This document shows positions 1 through 42,274 of a DNA stretch of 42,274 bases, piece after piece (the first letter of the stretch is position 1; each line of letters starts with the position of its first letter). This DNA comes from a virus: positions 1 to 42,274 of IMG/VR virus record IMGVR_UViG_3300046690_000140; one strand, written 5' to 3'. The notes under the pieces were generated by a model. It was not told where the DNA came from. It did not search any database and saw only the letters and a list, made by a program, of their open reading frames with translations. Position numbers and translations under genes: made by a program.

Positions 1-81
1 CATAGGCTCGGCGGCCTTGTCGCTGTCGGCGACGACTTCGTAGGCGCGGCCCTCGAAAACGGTCTGGATGGTGGTGATCAT
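1..81 (-). CDS. Partial leftward gene, N-terminus only (unknown)
   Basis: The first 27 codons of a leftward gene, cut by the window edge. The protein starts MITTIQTVFEGRAYEVVADS. The ATG is preceded on the minus strand by an AGGGAAG ribosome site about 10 nt upstream. The same leader (minus strand of about 82-98) stands in front of the 115-aa gene that starts at 41150, but the proteins differ after the first residues. The gene is therefore the leftward arm of a duplicated divergent module with a different payload. I do not recognise the family, and too little is visible to judge function. Confidence 0.6.
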   Translation of the reverse strand, partial: MITTIQTVFEGRAYEVVADSDKAAEPM

Positions 82-98
82 GTGATGGACTTCCCTGT

Positions 99-120
99 TC
101 AAACGGCGGGTGCCGTTTGA
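99..120. repeat. Inverted repeat in the leader of the partial gene
   Basis: TCAAACGGC and GCCGTTTGA form a perfect 9-bp stem with a GGGT tetraloop in the 5' leader of the leftward gene, between its promoter and ribosome site. In the right-hand copy of the module (about 41168-41190) the stem is eroded to about 5 bp, so the structure may be specific to this copy. Confidence 0.5.
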
Positions 121-124
121 AAGT

Positions 125-153
125 ACAATGGGACCAATGGTCCGTAATGTCAA
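125..153 (-). promoter_or_regulatory. Leftward promoter with palindromic operator
   Basis: Read on the minus strand there is TTGACA (153-148), a 17-nt spacer and CATTGT (130-125). The spacer contains the perfect 13-bp palindrome GGACCAATGGTCC (131-143). A palindrome between -35 and -10 is the usual place for a repressor operator. The binding protein is not known; the HTH protein at 40573-40806 is a candidate. Confidence 0.65.
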
Positions 154-186
154 CGACGATTTCTGAAAATAATTGAAAAAGACCCA

Positions 187-215
187 TTGACCTTTGCGGA
201 CCAATGGTCCATATT
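187..215 (+). promoter_or_regulatory. Rightward promoter with palindromic operator
   Basis: TTGACC (187-192), a 17-nt spacer and CATATT (210-215), with the palindrome GGACCAATGGTCC at 198-210 filling the spacer and touching the -10. The right-hand module at 41281-41309 has the same arrangement. The transcript would start about 30 nt before the gene at 251. Confidence 0.65.
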
Positions 216-238
216 GATCAAACCGGAATTAACCGGAC

Positions 239-316
239 GGAGCCATCACGATGACCAACCTCACCGCCACGATCGACGCCTACGCCGAACTCAAGACCCA
301 GATCGGCCAGCTGGAA
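239..316 (+). repeat. 78-nt block identical to 41333-41410
   Basis: The ribosome site (GGAG) and the first 66 nt of the coding sequence at 251 are identical, base for base, to those of the paralogue at 41345. Downstream the two copies diverge. Short fully identical blocks inside otherwise diverged copies suggest recent exchange between the two modules. Confidence 0.85.
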
Positions 317-568
317 CTCAAAAAGAAGCAGCTCGAAAACGCTCTCGCCGAACTGAAGGCCGGTTCCTATGAAACCGACCAGTTCCGCCTCACCATCTCC
401 GACAGCGTCCGCGAGGCGCCCGACGCCGTGCTGAAGGCGGAGATCGCGGAAGCCGTCGAGGCGTACCGCGCTACCCTGACCCGCCAGTACCTCACCGCCC
501 ACACCGTCGAGACCACGGTGCGCTCCCATCGCGTCGGGCTACCGACCGGCAAGAACCTCGCCGCCTGA
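251..568 (+). CDS. Small coiled-coil protein, copy 1 (unknown)
   Basis: This 105-aa protein has an N-terminal half that is almost certainly helical: residues 10-37 run through KTQIGQLELKKKQLENALAE with heptad-like spacing, suggesting a short coiled coil. The C-terminal part holds a conserved QYLTAHTV segment and ends GLPTGKNLAA. A paralogue of 109 aa lies at 41345-41674, with identical first 22 residues and the same C-terminal pattern. The start is fixed by GGAG 8 nt upstream and by conservation between copies. It is the first gene behind an operator-controlled rightward promoter, so it is probably expressed early. I do not recognise a family. A protein-protein or DNA-packaging accessory role is possible but unsupported. 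Confidence 0.85.
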   Translation: MTNLTATIDAYAELKTQIGQLELKKKQLENALAELKAGSYETDQFRLTISDSVREAPDAVLKAEIAEAVEAYRATLTRQYLTAHTVETTVRSHRVGLPTGKNLAA

Positions 569-580
569 TCTTTTACGCGA

Positions 581-605
581 CAGGCGGGCTGCTCTGGCCC
601 GCCTG
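581..605 (+). other. Conserved hairpin before the MKIPQLRY gene, copy 1
   Basis: CAGGCGGGC and GCCCGCCTG form a perfect 9-bp stem with a 7-nt loop (TGCTCTG) in the gap between the genes at 251 and 635. The same stem, with a different loop, precedes the paralogous gene at 42131 (42077-42101). No T-run follows, so it is more likely an RNA-processing, attenuation or stability element than a simple terminator. Confidence 0.6.
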
Positions 606-634
606 ACCCCCTTCAAACCTCAAAGGAACATCCC

Positions 635-847
635 ATGAAGATCCCGCAGCTTCGCTACACCCTCCAGATCGTCAGGACCAACGGCATCAAGCAGGCCATC
701 AAAGGCTCGTTCCGCGACCGCGCCGCGGCCACAGCCCACGGCGATCGCTGTTTCCCCGGCCGCTACGTCGTGGTCGACCGCATGCCCGGCCAGATCGGGG
801 AGGCGCTGAAGGCGCGCTACCCCGGCCTGAACATCACCGTGATCTGA
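635..847 (+). CDS. Conserved small basic protein, copy 1 (unknown)
   Basis: A 70-aa protein beginning MKIPQLRYTLQIV and rich in Arg and Lys. The start follows AAAGGAAC about 8 nt upstream. A paralogue starts at 42131 and is cut by the window end; the visible 48 residues differ at only four positions, and nucleotides 692-778 are identical to 42188-42274. In this copy the gene directly follows the coiled-coil gene, whereas the right-hand copy has two extra small genes between them. A terminator follows. The motif SFRDRAAATAHGDRC is the most conserved part. I know no function. The strong conservation compared with the neighbouring gene suggests selection or gene conversion. Confidence 0.85.
   Translation: MKIPQLRYTLQIVRTNGIKQAIKGSFRDRAAATAHGDRCFPGRYVVVDRMPGQIGEALKARYPGLNITVI
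692..778 (+). repeat. 87-nt block identical to the window's right end
   Basis: 692-778 equals 42188-42274 base for base, and the window stops exactly where this identity ends. It is part of the duplicated gene pair. Because the identical block is internal on the left, it is not a simple direct terminal repeat. It could be why an assembly stopped here. Confidence 0.85.
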
Positions 848-876
848 GCCTGACCCCCACCCCCTGCACGTGAGAC

Positions 877-1369: not shown

Positions 1370-1637
1370 ATGACCGACGATGACCGATGCGCGTCCTTTT
1401 CCCTACTTCGCCCCACAATTCACTTTTCACTACTCCCACCCTACCCCCCTTACCTCTCTCTCTCTTTTATTGAGATTATATTGAAATATGAGAAAAAGAA
1501 CGGTCATAACGGTCATCACTACTGCTAACACACTGCCAAACAATGCGTTTTCCACGATGACAGTTTTCTAAATAAACGGTCATCGATCGGTCACACGGTC
1601 ACGACACCGGTCATACTCGGTCATGGGCATCGGTCAT
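1370..1637. other. Putative replication origin: iteron array with AT-rich core
   Basis: Eight direct copies of CGGTCA(T/C) start at 1501, 1510, 1577, 1588, 1596, 1608, 1618 and 1631. Two inverted copies (ATGACCG) lie at 1370-1376 and 1380-1386. Between the two groups lies a pyrimidine tract and then the most AT-rich stretch of the area (about 1460-1500 and 1545-1577). The last repeat contains the stop codon of the primase-helicase gene. Short direct repeats next to an AT-rich stretch and a replication initiator gene are the classic layout of an iteron origin. Between 1287 and 1633 I see no gene. Confidence 0.65.
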
Positions 1638-8376: not shown

Positions 8377-8558
8377 TCCGTGTCCTTCTCTGCGACCACG
8401 CAGCGCACCACCACGCGGTTCTTGGAAGCGTCTCTGGCGGCTCTTGCCAGCGCCTCGCAGGCCGCCATGTCGGGCAGCTCCTGTATCGAGGCGGGCACGA
8501 TCTGGTCGCCGCTGTAGAGCGGACCGAGCGTCGCCATCACCAGCAGGAACACCTTCAT
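8373..8558 (-). CDS. Small exported or membrane protein
   Basis: A 61-aa protein starting MKVFLLVMATLGPLYSGDQI. The first 15 residues form a short hydrophobic stretch after a single Lys, consistent with a signal peptide or anchor. The rest is helical with two Cys (CEAL ... VRCVV) that could form a disulfide in the periplasm. The start at 8558 overlaps the GcrA stop by ATGA. Its function is unknown; superinfection exclusion is one possible role for such small envelope proteins. Confidence 0.7.
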   Translation of the reverse strand: MKVFLLVMATLGPLYSGDQIVPASIQELPDMAACEALARAARDASKNRVVVRCVVAEKDTE

Positions 8559-9007
8559 GTCCACTTCACCTTGGTGTTCCCGGCGGCCCTTTCGGTGTGC
8601 TTGTTGCAGTAGGGCCTGCCGAGCAGCGCCGGGCCGCCGCAGTAGCGGTAGGGCGGCCGGTCCTCGATCTTGCCCAGCGGCCATTTGCAATCGCCCCAGC
8701 CGAGCTGGTAGATGTCCAGTCCTGCCTCGGTATTGCGCGGCGCGATCTCGGCTGCGATCGGGGCGTCGACGCGGATCCTGATCATCTTGGCTTTCCCCCT
8801 GTTCTTGCGCGGTGTGTCCGATTGGTTCCGCGTCGGCAGGCCCAACCGGTGAGCTTTGCCGATGCAGGCATTTTTTGTCAGCTCGATGTTGAACGCCGCC
8901 GACATCTCCGCGGCGATCTTACCGAACGATAGCGGCGGCTCTTGGCGGTGCAGCTTGGTGAAGCGGAGTATCATGTCCGCGGTCCAGTCGTGGATGCCTT
9001 CCCTCAT
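8555..9007 (-). CDS. gcrA-like: GcrA-type cell-cycle regulator homologue
   Basis: A 150-aa homologue of GcrA, the alphaproteobacterial sigma70 cofactor that activates promoters carrying methylated GANTC sites. Both ends of the family are present: the N-terminal HTH with WTADMILRF at 8-16 and NACIGKAHRLGL at 46-57, and the C-terminal part with CKWPLG (Cys107), CGGPALLGRPYC (Cys123, Cys134) and His137. The middle linker (62-90) is basic. Host GcrA is usually somewhat longer with a simpler N-terminus; this copy has an insertion (SAAFNIELTK) before the recognition helix. It lies in an ATGA-coupled run of leftward early genes. The likely job is to redirect host or phage promoters, probably in step with the cell cycle. 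No CcrM-type methylase gene is present. Confidence 0.88.
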   Translation of the reverse strand: MREGIHDWTADMILRFTKLHRQEPPLSFGKIAAEMSAAFNIELTKNACIGKAHRLGLPTRNQSDTPRKNRGKAKMIRIRVDAPIAAEIAPRNTEAGLDIYQLGWGDCKWPLGKIEDRPPYRYCGGPALLGRPYCNKHTERAAGNTKVKWT

Positions 9008-9503: not shown

Positions 9504-9946
9504 TTGCGGCACTTCCAGCTTGACCCGACCGCGACCTTGTGCATGCCGTGGCGCGCGCAGATGTCGATCTTCATGTTGGCCCGGCGGGAAAACTTGCGCA
9601 GGTCATCCATGTTGAGGTCGGCGGCTTCGTCCATCTCGTTCTTGTCTGTCGCCTTGACGACCGGCATCGCCTTCATGACTTCCGTCGCCGGAACCTTGAC
9701 CGTCGTGACCGGGATCGGTTTGGTCAGGTCGATCATCTCGTTGTGGCCGACCATGCTGTTGCCGTTGATCTTGTAGGCCAGCTTGAGCGCCGCGATCTTG
9801 GCCTCCTCGGTCGGGATGACCGGCTTGACGTATACGGTCTGGTCGTCGGCGGTCTGGCCGCGGGCGTGGCTGGTTATCAACAGGAATATTCCAAGGGCTA
9901 TCAGCGACACCCCTGTCGAGATCGGATTCTTGATGGTCATCGTCAT
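9500..9946 (-). CDS. Exported protein with signal peptide (unknown)
   Basis: A 148-aa protein. The N-terminus has a clear Sec signal: a basic start, hydrophobic VSLIALGIFLLITS and a cleavage-like SHARGQ near residue 30. The mature part begins QTADDQTVYVKPVIP. The C-terminus carries two cysteines (DICARHG ... SWKCRK) that could pair in the periplasm. A phage early gene coding for a secreted protein suggests a role in the envelope, such as exclusion of other phages, but there is no recognised domain. The start overlaps the upstream regulator's stop by ATGA, so the two are co-expressed. Confidence 0.78.
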   Translation of the reverse strand: MTMTIKNPISTGVSLIALGIFLLITSHARGQTADDQTVYVKPVIPTEEAKIAALKLAYKINGNSMVGHNEMIDLTKPIPVTTVKVPATEVMKAMPVVKATDKNEMDEAADLNMDDLRKFSRRANMKIDICARHGMHKVAVGSSWKCRK

Positions 9947-10248
9947 CTCTCAGTCGTTGTGATGGATTTGCGGAACGGCTTGCGCCGCCCGGATGGGTAG
10001 TACTCCAGCCGCGCAATGGCTGCGCGAACGGCTTCTTTCGGGGTGACGGCCTTGGTCTTGCCGTCCATGTAGGCGTAGACGCGGTCGATGGTGGTTATTC
10101 TCGGGATCTTGCCCTCCTCTACGCGGGTGATGAAATGGCCGTCGCCCGCGGCCTTGACGCCGAAGGCGGTACGATCGATGCCGACCCGCGCGCGATACGC
10201 CTCGATGTCAGCGAGCAACTTCGTTGCAATGGGGTGCAGTTTTACCAT
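9943..10248 (-). CDS. XRE-like repressor candidate
   Basis: A 101-aa protein whose first 65 residues resemble small Cro/CI-like HTH proteins of Rhizobiales: a helix IATKLLADIEAYRARVG, then DRTAFGVKAAGDG and HFITRVEEGKIPRITTID, the usual HTH spacing. A basic C-terminal tail (SGRRKPFRKS) follows. It is the first gene of the leftward early transcript. Its ATG lies just beyond the dyad-symmetric promoter region at 10262-10345, so it is the natural candidate to bind the two TTTGTCAATTGAAA sites and repress both directions, including its own. Activator or Cro-like function is equally possible. Confidence 0.78.
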   Translation of the reverse strand: MVKLHPIATKLLADIEAYRARVGIDRTAFGVKAAGDGHFITRVEEGKIPRITTIDRVYAYMDGKTKAVTPKEAVRAAIARLEYYPSGRRKPFRKSITTTER

Positions 10249-10261
10249 TCGTGCCTTTTAG

Positions 10262-10345
10262 CACATCAATGGACCTTTGTCAATTGAAAAAGTTATCCAC
10301 AATGAAAATATTTCAATTGACAAACATCAATTAGTGTGCTAGTCT
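10262..10345. promoter_or_regulatory. Divergent promoters, paired operators and DnaA box
   Basis: TTTGTCAATTGAAA (10276-10289) and its exact inverse TTTCAATTGACAAA (10311-10324) flank a perfect DnaA box TTATCCACA (10293-10301). Rightward promoter: TTGACA 10317-10322, 17-nt spacer, TAGTCT 10340-10345. Leftward promoter: TTGACA (10282-10277), 17-nt spacer, TAAAAG (10259-10254). Both -35 boxes lie inside the arms, so a protein bound there would block both promoters. Looser matches (GCACA, CAAT) extend the dyad to about 29 nt per side. Confidence 0.75.
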
Positions 10346-10383
10346 ATGTTTATTGATAACGAAGATCTGACAAGGAATTACCG

Positions 10384-10623
10384 ATGACACGCTACGTTGC
10401 GCCCAAGGGCATCGTCGGCCACCCGGCTGTCGAGACATGTGACTACGGTCCCGACAGCGGCGTCGAGGATTATCGCCACGACGTCTGGCTGCACGAAGGA
10501 TGGATTTTCAAATACGGCCGCATGGCGGGCTGTCGCGGCGGCCACTTCAACTCGGTTCGCGATTTCATTTTCGCCGAGCCGACAAACCACCCCGACATCA
10601 TCAAGGTATGGAAGGACATCTAA
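10384..10623 (+). CDS. Small unknown protein, first rightward accessory gene
   Basis: A 79-aa protein starting MTRYVAPKGIVGHP, with AAGGAA about 9 nt upstream. It is rich in Tyr, His, Trp and Gly (DYRHDVWLHEGWIFKYGRM) and looks like a compact beta fold. Two Cys (ETCDYG, AGCRGG) could bind metal or form a disulfide. It is the first gene behind the rightward promoter of the DnaA-box region and overlaps the next gene by TAATG. I do not recognise the family. Confidence 0.8.
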   Translation: MTRYVAPKGIVGHPAVETCDYGPDSGVEDYRHDVWLHEGWIFKYGRMAGCRGGHFNSVRDFIFAEPTNHPDIIKVWKDI

Positions 10624-40806: not shown

Positions 40807-41150
40807 GCTGGCACCTTGGCGAACTTCTTGGTATCGCGTTTGCGGGCCTGCCCGACCCGGCGCACGACGTCGCGGCGGGCCCCCTCCAGCGTGGCAAACT
40901 CGATGGTATTGAACGACGGGCCATACTTCTTGCCATTGCGGGTCGGGTGGCCCCACAGCTCGAACAGCACCGCAGGCTCGCGGTGGTAATAACCGTAATT
41001 GCCTCCGTCCCCCGCCAGCTCGGCGTAGGTCACCTGCCGGATACGCCACGCGTAGCCGACGCTGCGGTTCAGGCGATCGGCGAAGCCGTACTCGACCGCG
41101 CCGCTGTCGAGGACTTCACCGTAGGTTTTGGTGCATTTGGTGGTGGTCAT
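40803..41150 (-). CDS. Unknown 115-aa protein of the right control module
   Basis: A 115-aa protein starting MTTTKCTKTYGEVLDSGAVE at 41150, where the ribosome site AGGGAAG has been conserved with the left module. The body is rich in Tyr, Gly and Arg (GGNYGYYHREPAVLFELWGH), and the basic end has RRDVVRRVGQARKRDTKKF. The first residues after MTTT differ from the left partial gene, so the module carries different payloads under the same leader. Its stop overlaps the HTH gene by GTGA. No family recognised. Confidence 0.75.
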   Translation of the reverse strand: MTTTKCTKTYGEVLDSGAVEYGFADRLNRSVGYAWRIRQVTYAELAGDGGNYGYYHREPAVLFELWGHPTRNGKKYGPSFNTIEFATLEGARRDVVRRVGQARKRDTKKFAKVPA

Positions 41151-41193
41151 GTGATGGACTTCCCTGTTTGAACGGCGGATGCCGTCTGAAAGT

Positions 41194-41221
41194 AGAATAC
41201 AGACCATTGGTCCGAAGTCAA
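41194..41221 (-). promoter_or_regulatory. Leftward promoter with palindromic operator
   Basis: Minus strand: TTGACT (41221-41216), a 16-nt spacer and TATTCT (41199-41194). The spacer contains AGACCATTGGTCC (41201-41213), one base off the perfect palindrome. It drives the 115-aa and HTH genes and mirrors the left module. Confidence 0.62.
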
Positions 41222-41235
41222 GACTATCCCACACC

Positions 41236-41248
41236 GGACCACTAGTCC
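41236..41248. promoter_or_regulatory. Fifth palindrome, variant operator
   Basis: GGACCACTAGTCC, a variant of the 13-bp palindrome, lies between the two right-module promoters and overlaps neither. It may be an auxiliary site for cooperative binding or looping. The left module lacks it. Confidence 0.6.
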
Positions 41249-41280
41249 GATAGTCGTAGAAAATAATTGAAAAAGACCCA

Positions 41281-41309
41281 TTGACGTTTACGGACCAATG
41301 GTCCATATT
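41281..41309 (+). promoter_or_regulatory. Rightward promoter with palindromic operator
   Basis: TTGACG (41281-41286), a 17-nt spacer and CATATT (41304-41309), with GGACCAATGGTCC (41292-41304) in the spacer. The preceding stretch (AATTGAAAAAGACCCA) is identical to the left module. Confidence 0.65.
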
Positions 41310-41332
41310 CGCGTTACCGGAATTAACCGGAT

Positions 41333-41410
41333 GGAGCCATCACGATGACCAACCTCACCGCCACGATCGACGCCTACGCCGAACTCAAGACCCAGATCGG
41401 CCAGCTGGAA
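41333..41410 (+). repeat. 78-nt block identical to 239-316
   Basis: The second copy of the block covering the ribosome site and first 66 nt of the MTNL coding sequence. Flanking sequence is diverged, consistent with local gene conversion between the two modules. Confidence 0.85.
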
Positions 41411-41674
41411 GCCAAAAAGAAGGAACTCGAAGCGGCGCTGGCCGACCTTAAGGAAGGCAACTACGAGAGCGACCAGTTCCGGCTCACGATCTCCGATGTT
41501 AGGGGAACAGCCCCCGACGCCAAGCTGAAGGCCGAGATCAAGGCCGTTCTAACGGCCGCTGAGGCCGATTACCGCAGCTCCCTGTCTACCCAGTACCTGA
41601 CCGCCCACACCGTCCCCACGCTCGTCCGCAGGCATCTGGTAGGCCTTCCCACCGGAAAGGACTTGGCCGCCTGA
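41345..41674 (+). CDS. Small coiled-coil protein, copy 2 (unknown)
   Basis: A 109-aa paralogue of the protein at 251-568. The first 22 residues are identical; the middle has diverged (AKKKELEAALADLKEGNYES), and an insertion of four residues (AVLTA) precedes SSLSTQYLTAHTV. The C-terminus GLPTGKDLAA is the same type. It has the same GGAG ribosome site and the same operator-bearing promoter, so the two are probably expressed together. No family is recognised. Its stop overlaps the next ATG (TGATG). Confidence 0.85.
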   Translation: MTNLTATIDAYAELKTQIGQLEAKKKELEAALADLKEGNYESDQFRLTISDVRGTAPDAKLKAEIKAVLTAAEADYRSSLSTQYLTAHTVPTLVRRHLVGLPTGKDLAA

Positions 41675-41853
41675 TGCCGACCCTCACCCTGACCCCGGCC
41701 GAGATCAGGCTGATCTCGGCCGCACTGGAGGAAGCGATCGACTACTGGTCGATCACCGACGCGGACGGTGTCCGCGACAGCCCCGCCAACCAGAGGCGGA
41801 TCACCAAGACCCGAACCCTGCTCACCAAACTGACCCAAAGGAACACCCCATGA
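41674..41853 (+). CDS. Small 59-aa protein (unknown)
   Basis: A 59-aa protein starting MPTLTLTPAEIRLISAALEE, with a helical first half and a polar, Arg/Thr-rich end (ITKTRTLLTKLTQRNTP). Both ends overlap the neighbours (TGATG before, ATGA after), which supports coding. It is absent from the left module, so it is either a gain here or a loss there. No domain is recognised. Confidence 0.72.
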   Translation: MPTLTLTPAEIRLISAALEEAIDYWSITDADGVRDSPANQRRITKTRTLLTKLTQRNTP

Positions 41854-42065
41854 CCAAGACCCCATACGACGGCCGCCCCTTCAAAGTCCTCAGTGAGGCT
41901 ACCGGCACCCTGATGGCCGAGGCCGACCGCCTGCAGGACGCGCAGGCCGCCGCCGACCAGCTGCACCGGGACGACCCGTCCACCCACTTCCGGGTGGTCG
42001 AGATCCGCTGGTGCGGCGGCAGCAAGCGGTTGTCCGACATCGACGCCCGCAAGGCCAGCCAGTAA
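41850..42065 (+). CDS. Small unknown protein
   Basis: A 71-aa protein starting MTKTPYDGRPFKVLSEATGT. It has strands FKVLSE and FRVVEIRW around a helix EADRLQDAQAAADQLHR, perhaps a small ferredoxin-like fold. The stop at 42065 is followed by the conserved hairpin at 42077-42101. Like the 59-aa gene, it is missing from the left module. Confidence 0.75.
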   Translation: MTKTPYDGRPFKVLSEATGTLMAEADRLQDAQAAADQLHRDDPSTHFRVVEIRWCGGSKRLSDIDARKASQ

Positions 42066-42076
42066 CCAAAACCTCA

Positions 42077-42101
42077 CAGGCGGGCCGCGCTGGCCCGCCT
42101 G
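42077..42101 (+). other. Conserved hairpin before the MKIPQLRY gene, copy 2
   Basis: CAGGCGGGC (42077-42085) and GCCCGCCTG (42093-42101), the same 9-bp stem as at 581-605. The loops differ at several positions while both arms are unchanged. Stem kept and loop changed is what selection on an RNA structure would leave. Confidence 0.6.
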
Positions 42102-42130
42102 ACCCCATCACAGCACCAAAGGAACACCCC

Positions 42131-42274
42131 ATGAAGATCCCGCAGCTCCGCTACACCCTCCAGATCGTCAAAGCCAACGGCACCAGACAGGCCATCAAAG
42201 GCTCGTTCCGCGACCGCGCCGCGGCCACAGCCCACGGCGATCGCTGTTTCCCCGGCCGCTACGTCGTGGTCGAC
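42131..42274 (+). CDS. Partial gene: conserved small basic protein, copy 2
   Basis: The first 48 codons of a paralogue of the protein at 635-847 (MKIPQLRYTLQIVKANGTRQ); the window ends before the stop. Four of the 48 residues differ, all before residue 20; from 42188 to the end the DNA is identical to 692-778. Ribosome site AAAGGAAC as in copy 1. Confidence 0.8.
   Translation, partial: MKIPQLRYTLQIVKANGTRQAIKGSFRDRAAATAHGDRCFPGRYVVVD
42188..42274 (+). repeat. 87-nt block identical to 692-778 at the window end
   Basis: Identical to 692-778 up to the last base of the window. Whether the real sequence continues like copy 1 or differs cannot be seen. An assembly could have stopped at the repeat. 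Confidence 0.85.

Follow-up and report, generated by a model that had tools for sequence, protein, structure and literature searches.

What controls two divergent early promoters that flank an exact DnaA box, in a phage whose leftward operon encodes a GcrA homologue? The first-pass annotation had suggested that the locus may be a switch read by the replication state of the host, with DnaA bound in the spacer as activator or blocker, and with the phage GcrA pointing to cell-cycle-linked control of the early genes. We analysed the entire IMG/VR virus record IMGVR_UViG_3300046690_000140 (42,274 bases), referred to here as the window. Coordinates are collected in Table 1.

Divergent promoters and the operons they head

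The locus is an early control region in the virus of a soil bacterium. The window belongs to a Caudoviricetes phage, probably with an alphaproteobacterial (Hyphomicrobiales-like) host, the host being suggested by the similarity of portal, capsid and terminase to those of Rhizobium phage RHph_I3_18 and Bradyrhizobium phage ppBjS10J-1. Leftwards, the gene for a small HTH protein is followed by three small genes and those for GcrA, a RecE-like exonuclease, an HNH protein and a D5-type primase/helicase; the minus strand carries late genes over the remainder of the window. The rightward operon consists of small early genes with no assigned function, of which the first has no relatives among the viral contigs searched, and the second (10623) and later ones are kept in relatives.

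Viral contigs were scanned with proteins, protein alignments and one DNA pattern, and the operon of HTH gene and GcrA gene proved common to about 30 phages; conservation of the XRE-GcrA pair was seen by tblastn in relatives and in a comparison of 47 GcrA loci. Cultured phage records gave no match to the HTH protein or to GcrA, and a 3-kb DNA search of those records returned nothing. In three relatives (L031, L033 and L034) the divergent region is absent, and the XRE-GcrA pair is immediately preceded by a LuxR-type-HTH-like gene, read by eye.

Table 1. Features of the early control region and related elements, in window positions
Feature	Position	Strand	Basis or remark
Putative phage replication origin	1371..1636	.	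10 CGGTCA iterons and adjoining AT-rich stretch; primase 3' end
GcrA homologue	8555..9007	-	in P_L operon; Pfam GcrA E 6e-16
XRE-type (lambda-repressor-like) HTH protein, 101 aa	9943..10248	-	first gene of leftward early/replication operon; proposed autoregulator
P_L -10 TAAAAG	10255..10260	-	6 nt before ATG at 10248; leaderless transcript inferred
P_L -35 TTGACA	10278..10283	-	sequence, promoter scan; 17 bp to -10
Inverted duplication of both promoters	10259..10341	.	36-nt arms 10259-10294 / 10306-10341, 81%
Likely operator O_L AATGGA-cctttg-TCAATT	10268..10285	.	dyad scan, family-wide core; overlaps P_L -35 and spacer
Consensus DnaA box TTATCCACA	10293..10301	+	centre about -49 from P_L start, -55 from P_R start; leftward reading TGTGGATAA
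Likely operator O_R AATTGA-caaaca-TCAATT	10315..10332	.	perfect 6-N6-6 dyad; dyad scan, family-wide core; overlaps P_R -35 and spacer
P_R -35 TTGACA	10317..10322	+	sequence, promoter scan; 17 bp to -10
P_R -10 TAGTCT	10340..10345	+	sequence, promoter scan
First gene of rightward early operon	10384..10623	+	79 aa, function unassigned, SD-like leader
Further operator copy AATTGAAAAAGACCCATT	171..188	.	ahead of rightward promoter, left end
Further operator copy AATTGAAAAAGACCCATT	41265..41282	.	ahead of paralogous promoter, right end

The symmetry of the region is as first annotated: the -35 boxes of the divergent promoters lie within the 14-mer TTTGTCAATTGAAA (10276-10289) and its exact inverse (10311-10324). 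When the 135-bp intergenic region (33% GC) was shuffled with its dinucleotides kept, an exact inverted repeat of at least 14 arose 0.02% of the time. The two 14-mers form the core of a longer inverted repeat, of 36 nt, in which whole promoters are duplicated. P_L of the window (TTGACAAAGGTCCATTGATGTGCTA) and P_R of the relative L021 (TTGACAAAGACCCATTGATGTGCTA) agree, in a count by eye, at no fewer than 22 of 25 bases, so that the symmetry is best explained if the rightward promoter was duplicated in inverted orientation.

Of 27 relatives, 21 have their best sigma-70-like promoter ending 5-9 nt ahead of the ATG that starts the HTH gene; shuffles gave 1.9. Because of this position P_L probably starts transcription at or next to that ATG in most relatives, which would make the HTH mRNA leaderless.

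Paired operators and a candidate autoregulator

When the rightward promoters of the relatives were aligned, a second conserved element, TCMATT, appeared at a fixed distance from the -35 box. This element and the -35 half make up a dyad, WATTGA-N6-YCMATT, which has 22 matches with up to one mismatch in the intergenic regions of the clade (0.16 in shuffles), near-palindromic sites being counted in both directions. This 18-bp dyad, shifted outwards to 10268-10285 and 10315-10332, is likely to be the protein-binding unit, rather than the 14-mer. Its strict form has four copies in the window (10268, 10315, 171 and 41265), every one of them at a promoter.

The motif was found post hoc, an objection that is partly answered by 16 distant relatives held out from the derivation of its core; the motif and the relatives are not phylogenetically independent. 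In this set the core ATNG-N8-CNAT (AT.G-N8-C.AT) is present at spacing 8 in 12 members, and at spacings 5-7 and 9-11 in 0-1 (0.65 in shuffles). The sequence-anchored comparison took the place of a generic test of arm complementarity, which found 20 of 27 regions at spacing 6, but also 18 at spacings 2, 4 and 8, and did not single out spacing 6. The dyads overlap both divergent promoters and recur in relatives, the arrangement expected of operators in an XRE-type divergent switch.

Two paralogous cassettes occupy the ends of the window (60-850 and 41140-42274), each with a divergent promoter, an operator copy and several palindromes of the GGACCAATGGTCC type. These palindromes, at 131, 198, 41201, 41236 and 41292, represent another operator family, as yet unassigned. 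The record terminates within the end-cassette repeat.

The candidate ligand of the dyads is encoded beside them. An AF2 model of the HTH protein, built from 15 relatives, reached a pLDDT of about 86-88 over residues 11-60, and its best fold matches were HipB, SinR, the 434 and P22 c2 repressors and C.Esp1396I. The match probabilities were 0.97-0.99 with E values of 0.17-0.6, so that the assignment to the lambda-repressor fold carries an E value above 0.1. The protein has no match in Pfam or NCBIfam, and a sequence search of the PDB gave nothing useful. The first-pass interpretation holds in part. Its proposal that the product of 9943-10248 governs the divergent promoters through paired operators is supported by conserved operators, the HTH fold and a conserved leaderless promoter, with operator boundaries that differ from those first drawn.

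We consider it probable that the GcrA/replication operon is preceded by an autoregulated divergent early switch of the XRE type, to which a DnaA site has been added as an option. From the promoters, operators, fold and operon described above we infer binding and repression as follows. P_L, probably leaderless, would express the small HTH protein and then GcrA, exonuclease and primase/helicase, and P_R the small early proteins. The HTH protein would bind the 18-bp dyad over the -35 box and spacer of each promoter and, as it accumulates, would shut down both P_L, and with it its own gene, and P_R. The copies at 171 and 41265 would place two further early promoters under the same protein. The DnaA box, located in the free 29-bp spacer at an activator-like distance from both promoters, would be a lineage-specific extra.

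A DnaA box in the spacer

The box is perfect, as the first-pass annotation had stated, and is the sole exact copy in the window. Dinucleotide shuffling of the intergenic region, as above, yields an exact box in 0.24% of cases. The location of the box, 49 and 55 bp upstream of the starts of P_L and P_R, is a regulatory one, as expected of a DnaA-regulated promoter. Host DnaA bound at 10293-10301 might activate P_L, and perhaps P_R, so that replication competence of the host switches on the GcrA/replication operon. Such an input would be compatible with the XRE-type switch and would copy the link from DnaA to gcrA in Caulobacter, where gcrA is DnaA-dependent and its promoter region binds DnaA (PMC8203912); the phage operon likewise includes a gcrA gene. 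The comparison of genomes speaks on both sides. The box is absent from all of the nearest relatives. It recurs upstream in two others, L030 and L050, in each case at position -31 relative to the HTH start codon, directly behind the -35 box of P_L, and all three exact boxes share one orientation.

The box is therefore present in 3 of 22 upstream regions (0.044 expected), a number that none of 3000 shuffles reached, and among 1680 permuted 9-mers tested the DnaA 9-mer was the only one found in three regions. The window was picked for its box, which leaves L030 and L050 as the only independent cases and a p value, from shuffles, of roughly 0.001. In L030 and L050 the box lies inside P_L, where it is expected to repress; in the window it lies upstream of P_L, where activation or no effect is expected. 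Further points against DnaA control are that the box is single and that DnaA sites in alphaproteobacterial phages show no positional pattern (PMC9437464). We regard regulation by DnaA at this locus as possible but doubtful.

The near-identical phages L049 and L050 differ exactly at this box (L050:404-412; -31 to -23 relative to the ATG of the HTH protein): L049 has TGTGAACAA at the place where L050 has TGTGGATAA. The two constitute a natural mutant pair. A search of IMG/VR for the pattern operator-DnaA box-operator found one other contig, L037, and this was rejected as a chance match within the coding sequence of an AT-rich phage. The 22 upstream regions contain no LexA, CtrA, IHF or FNR sites.

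On balance we incline slightly towards a chance 9-mer in an AT-rich spacer, where the spacer would serve as an UP element for the alpha subunit of RNA polymerase and DnaA would not be needed. Consistent with this are the AT-richness itself, the conserved AA at -10/-9 relative to the -35 box in P_R, the loss or gain of the box between near-identical phages, and the frequency of the 9-mer in the coding sequence of the group (5 in 303 kb, with 0.3-0.6 expected). The boxes in L024, L026 and L028, which are within or at the end of coding sequence, were excluded as regulatory. Against chance stand the low shuffle probability in the window and the finding of the box in this short region of two more phages. 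Because of this recurrence in two other relatives (3 of 22; 0.04 expected), a lineage-specific DnaA input is possible, and we grade it as plausible but unproven. The first annotators' activator or blocker is in the same position: exact boxes occur in two other lineages above chance, and the box is missing from all of the closest relatives and replaced by TGTGAACAA in L049.

An AT-rich stretch with a DnaA box might also mark a DnaA-assisted origin of phage replication, and the minimum of the cumulative GC skew falls within about 3 kb, although gene direction confounds the skew. The region has a single box and no iterons. In contrast, iterons and an AT-rich stretch adjoin the D5-type primase gene at 1371-1636, and comparable arrays are present in L036 (unit GTGACCG) and L028 (GCCACCC). 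The iterons are likely the better origin candidate, and we consider an origin at 10293 very improbable.

GcrA and the relation to known systems

Could the phage GcrA act directly at these promoters, through CcrM-methylated sites? Its gene is part of the operon. Known GcrA activity requires CcrM-methylated GANTC (PMC3667746), and no GANTC occurs in 10245-10390 or within 320 bp of the early promoters; the nearest, at 9925, is inside a gene. The avoidance is genome-wide. The window has 6 GANTC sites, where 52 (maximal-order Markov) to 143 (base composition) are expected, and among the 16 palindromes of its form GANTC is avoided most strongly. In relatives that carry the HTH-GcrA pair, counts are mostly 0-3 per 10 kb (30-38 expected), the highest being 5 in L040 (23 expected), 5 in L052 (31 expected) and 8 in the distant L056 (22 expected). 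GANTC is more frequent in distant GcrA loci that do not have the HTH gene and in L019 and L020, which lack GcrA and in which the site is depleted only about half-fold.

Because GANTC is avoided and is absent near the early promoters, GcrA cannot act on them by its known mode, and direct action there has next to no probability in our assessment. The suggestion that GcrA contributes to control of the phage's own early genes thus finds no support. More plausibly, GcrA, a product of the leftward operon, is aimed at host promoters; the avoidance suggests that it acts on the genome of the host and not on that of the phage.

We speculate that the phage has put its gcrA/replication operon under the control of host DnaA. 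Through the box between the operators, DnaA would switch on the early promoters, or lift their repression, in cells competent for replication; GANTC would be avoided so that GcrA re-programmes host promoters only; and in some relatives (L030 and L050) a DnaA box would have taken the exact place of the repressor site of P_L. Taken as a whole, this scheme is unlikely. The map of operators and box makes possible a direct test of whether such phages read host replication via DnaA. The preferred reading, the autoregulated switch, comes with an operator code, defined from sequence alone, for a small XRE regulator whose gene is the first of a GcrA-carrying early operon shared by about 30 uncultured phages.

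Phage lambda has a divergent CI/Cro switch with dyad operators and a leaderless cI transcript from PRM. The window shares with it the divergent promoters, dyad operators of 16-18 bp over the -35 box and spacer, a small protein of the lambda-repressor fold and, probably, a leaderless regulator mRNA. Unlike lambda, it has one small HTH protein that heads a replication operon, one operator per promoter and a DnaA box in the spacer. A CI/Cro lysogeny switch, with two antagonistic repressors and integration functions, was rejected, as neither a second repressor nor an integrase was found among roughly 45 window proteins scanned against Pfam, PHROGs or NCBIfam.

Among alphaproteobacterial phages, phiCbK also combines a small XRE regulator, TgrL (gp216), with a GcrA, gp222 (PMC10688885, PMC3556154), although phiCbK, unlike the phage studied here, is a giant siphophage. 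Like the locus, the DnaA-activated gcrA promoter of Caulobacter has a DnaA box ahead of the transcription unit to which gcrA belongs (PMC8203912). In the window, however, gcrA is a phage gene located downstream in its operon, and the candidate DnaA site is not conserved. Phages under CtrA control (lytic deferment) read the host cell cycle via a host regulator (PMC9437464). The CtrA site TTAA-N7-TTAA occurs in 0 of the 22 upstream regions of the present group, in which the candidate input is DnaA.
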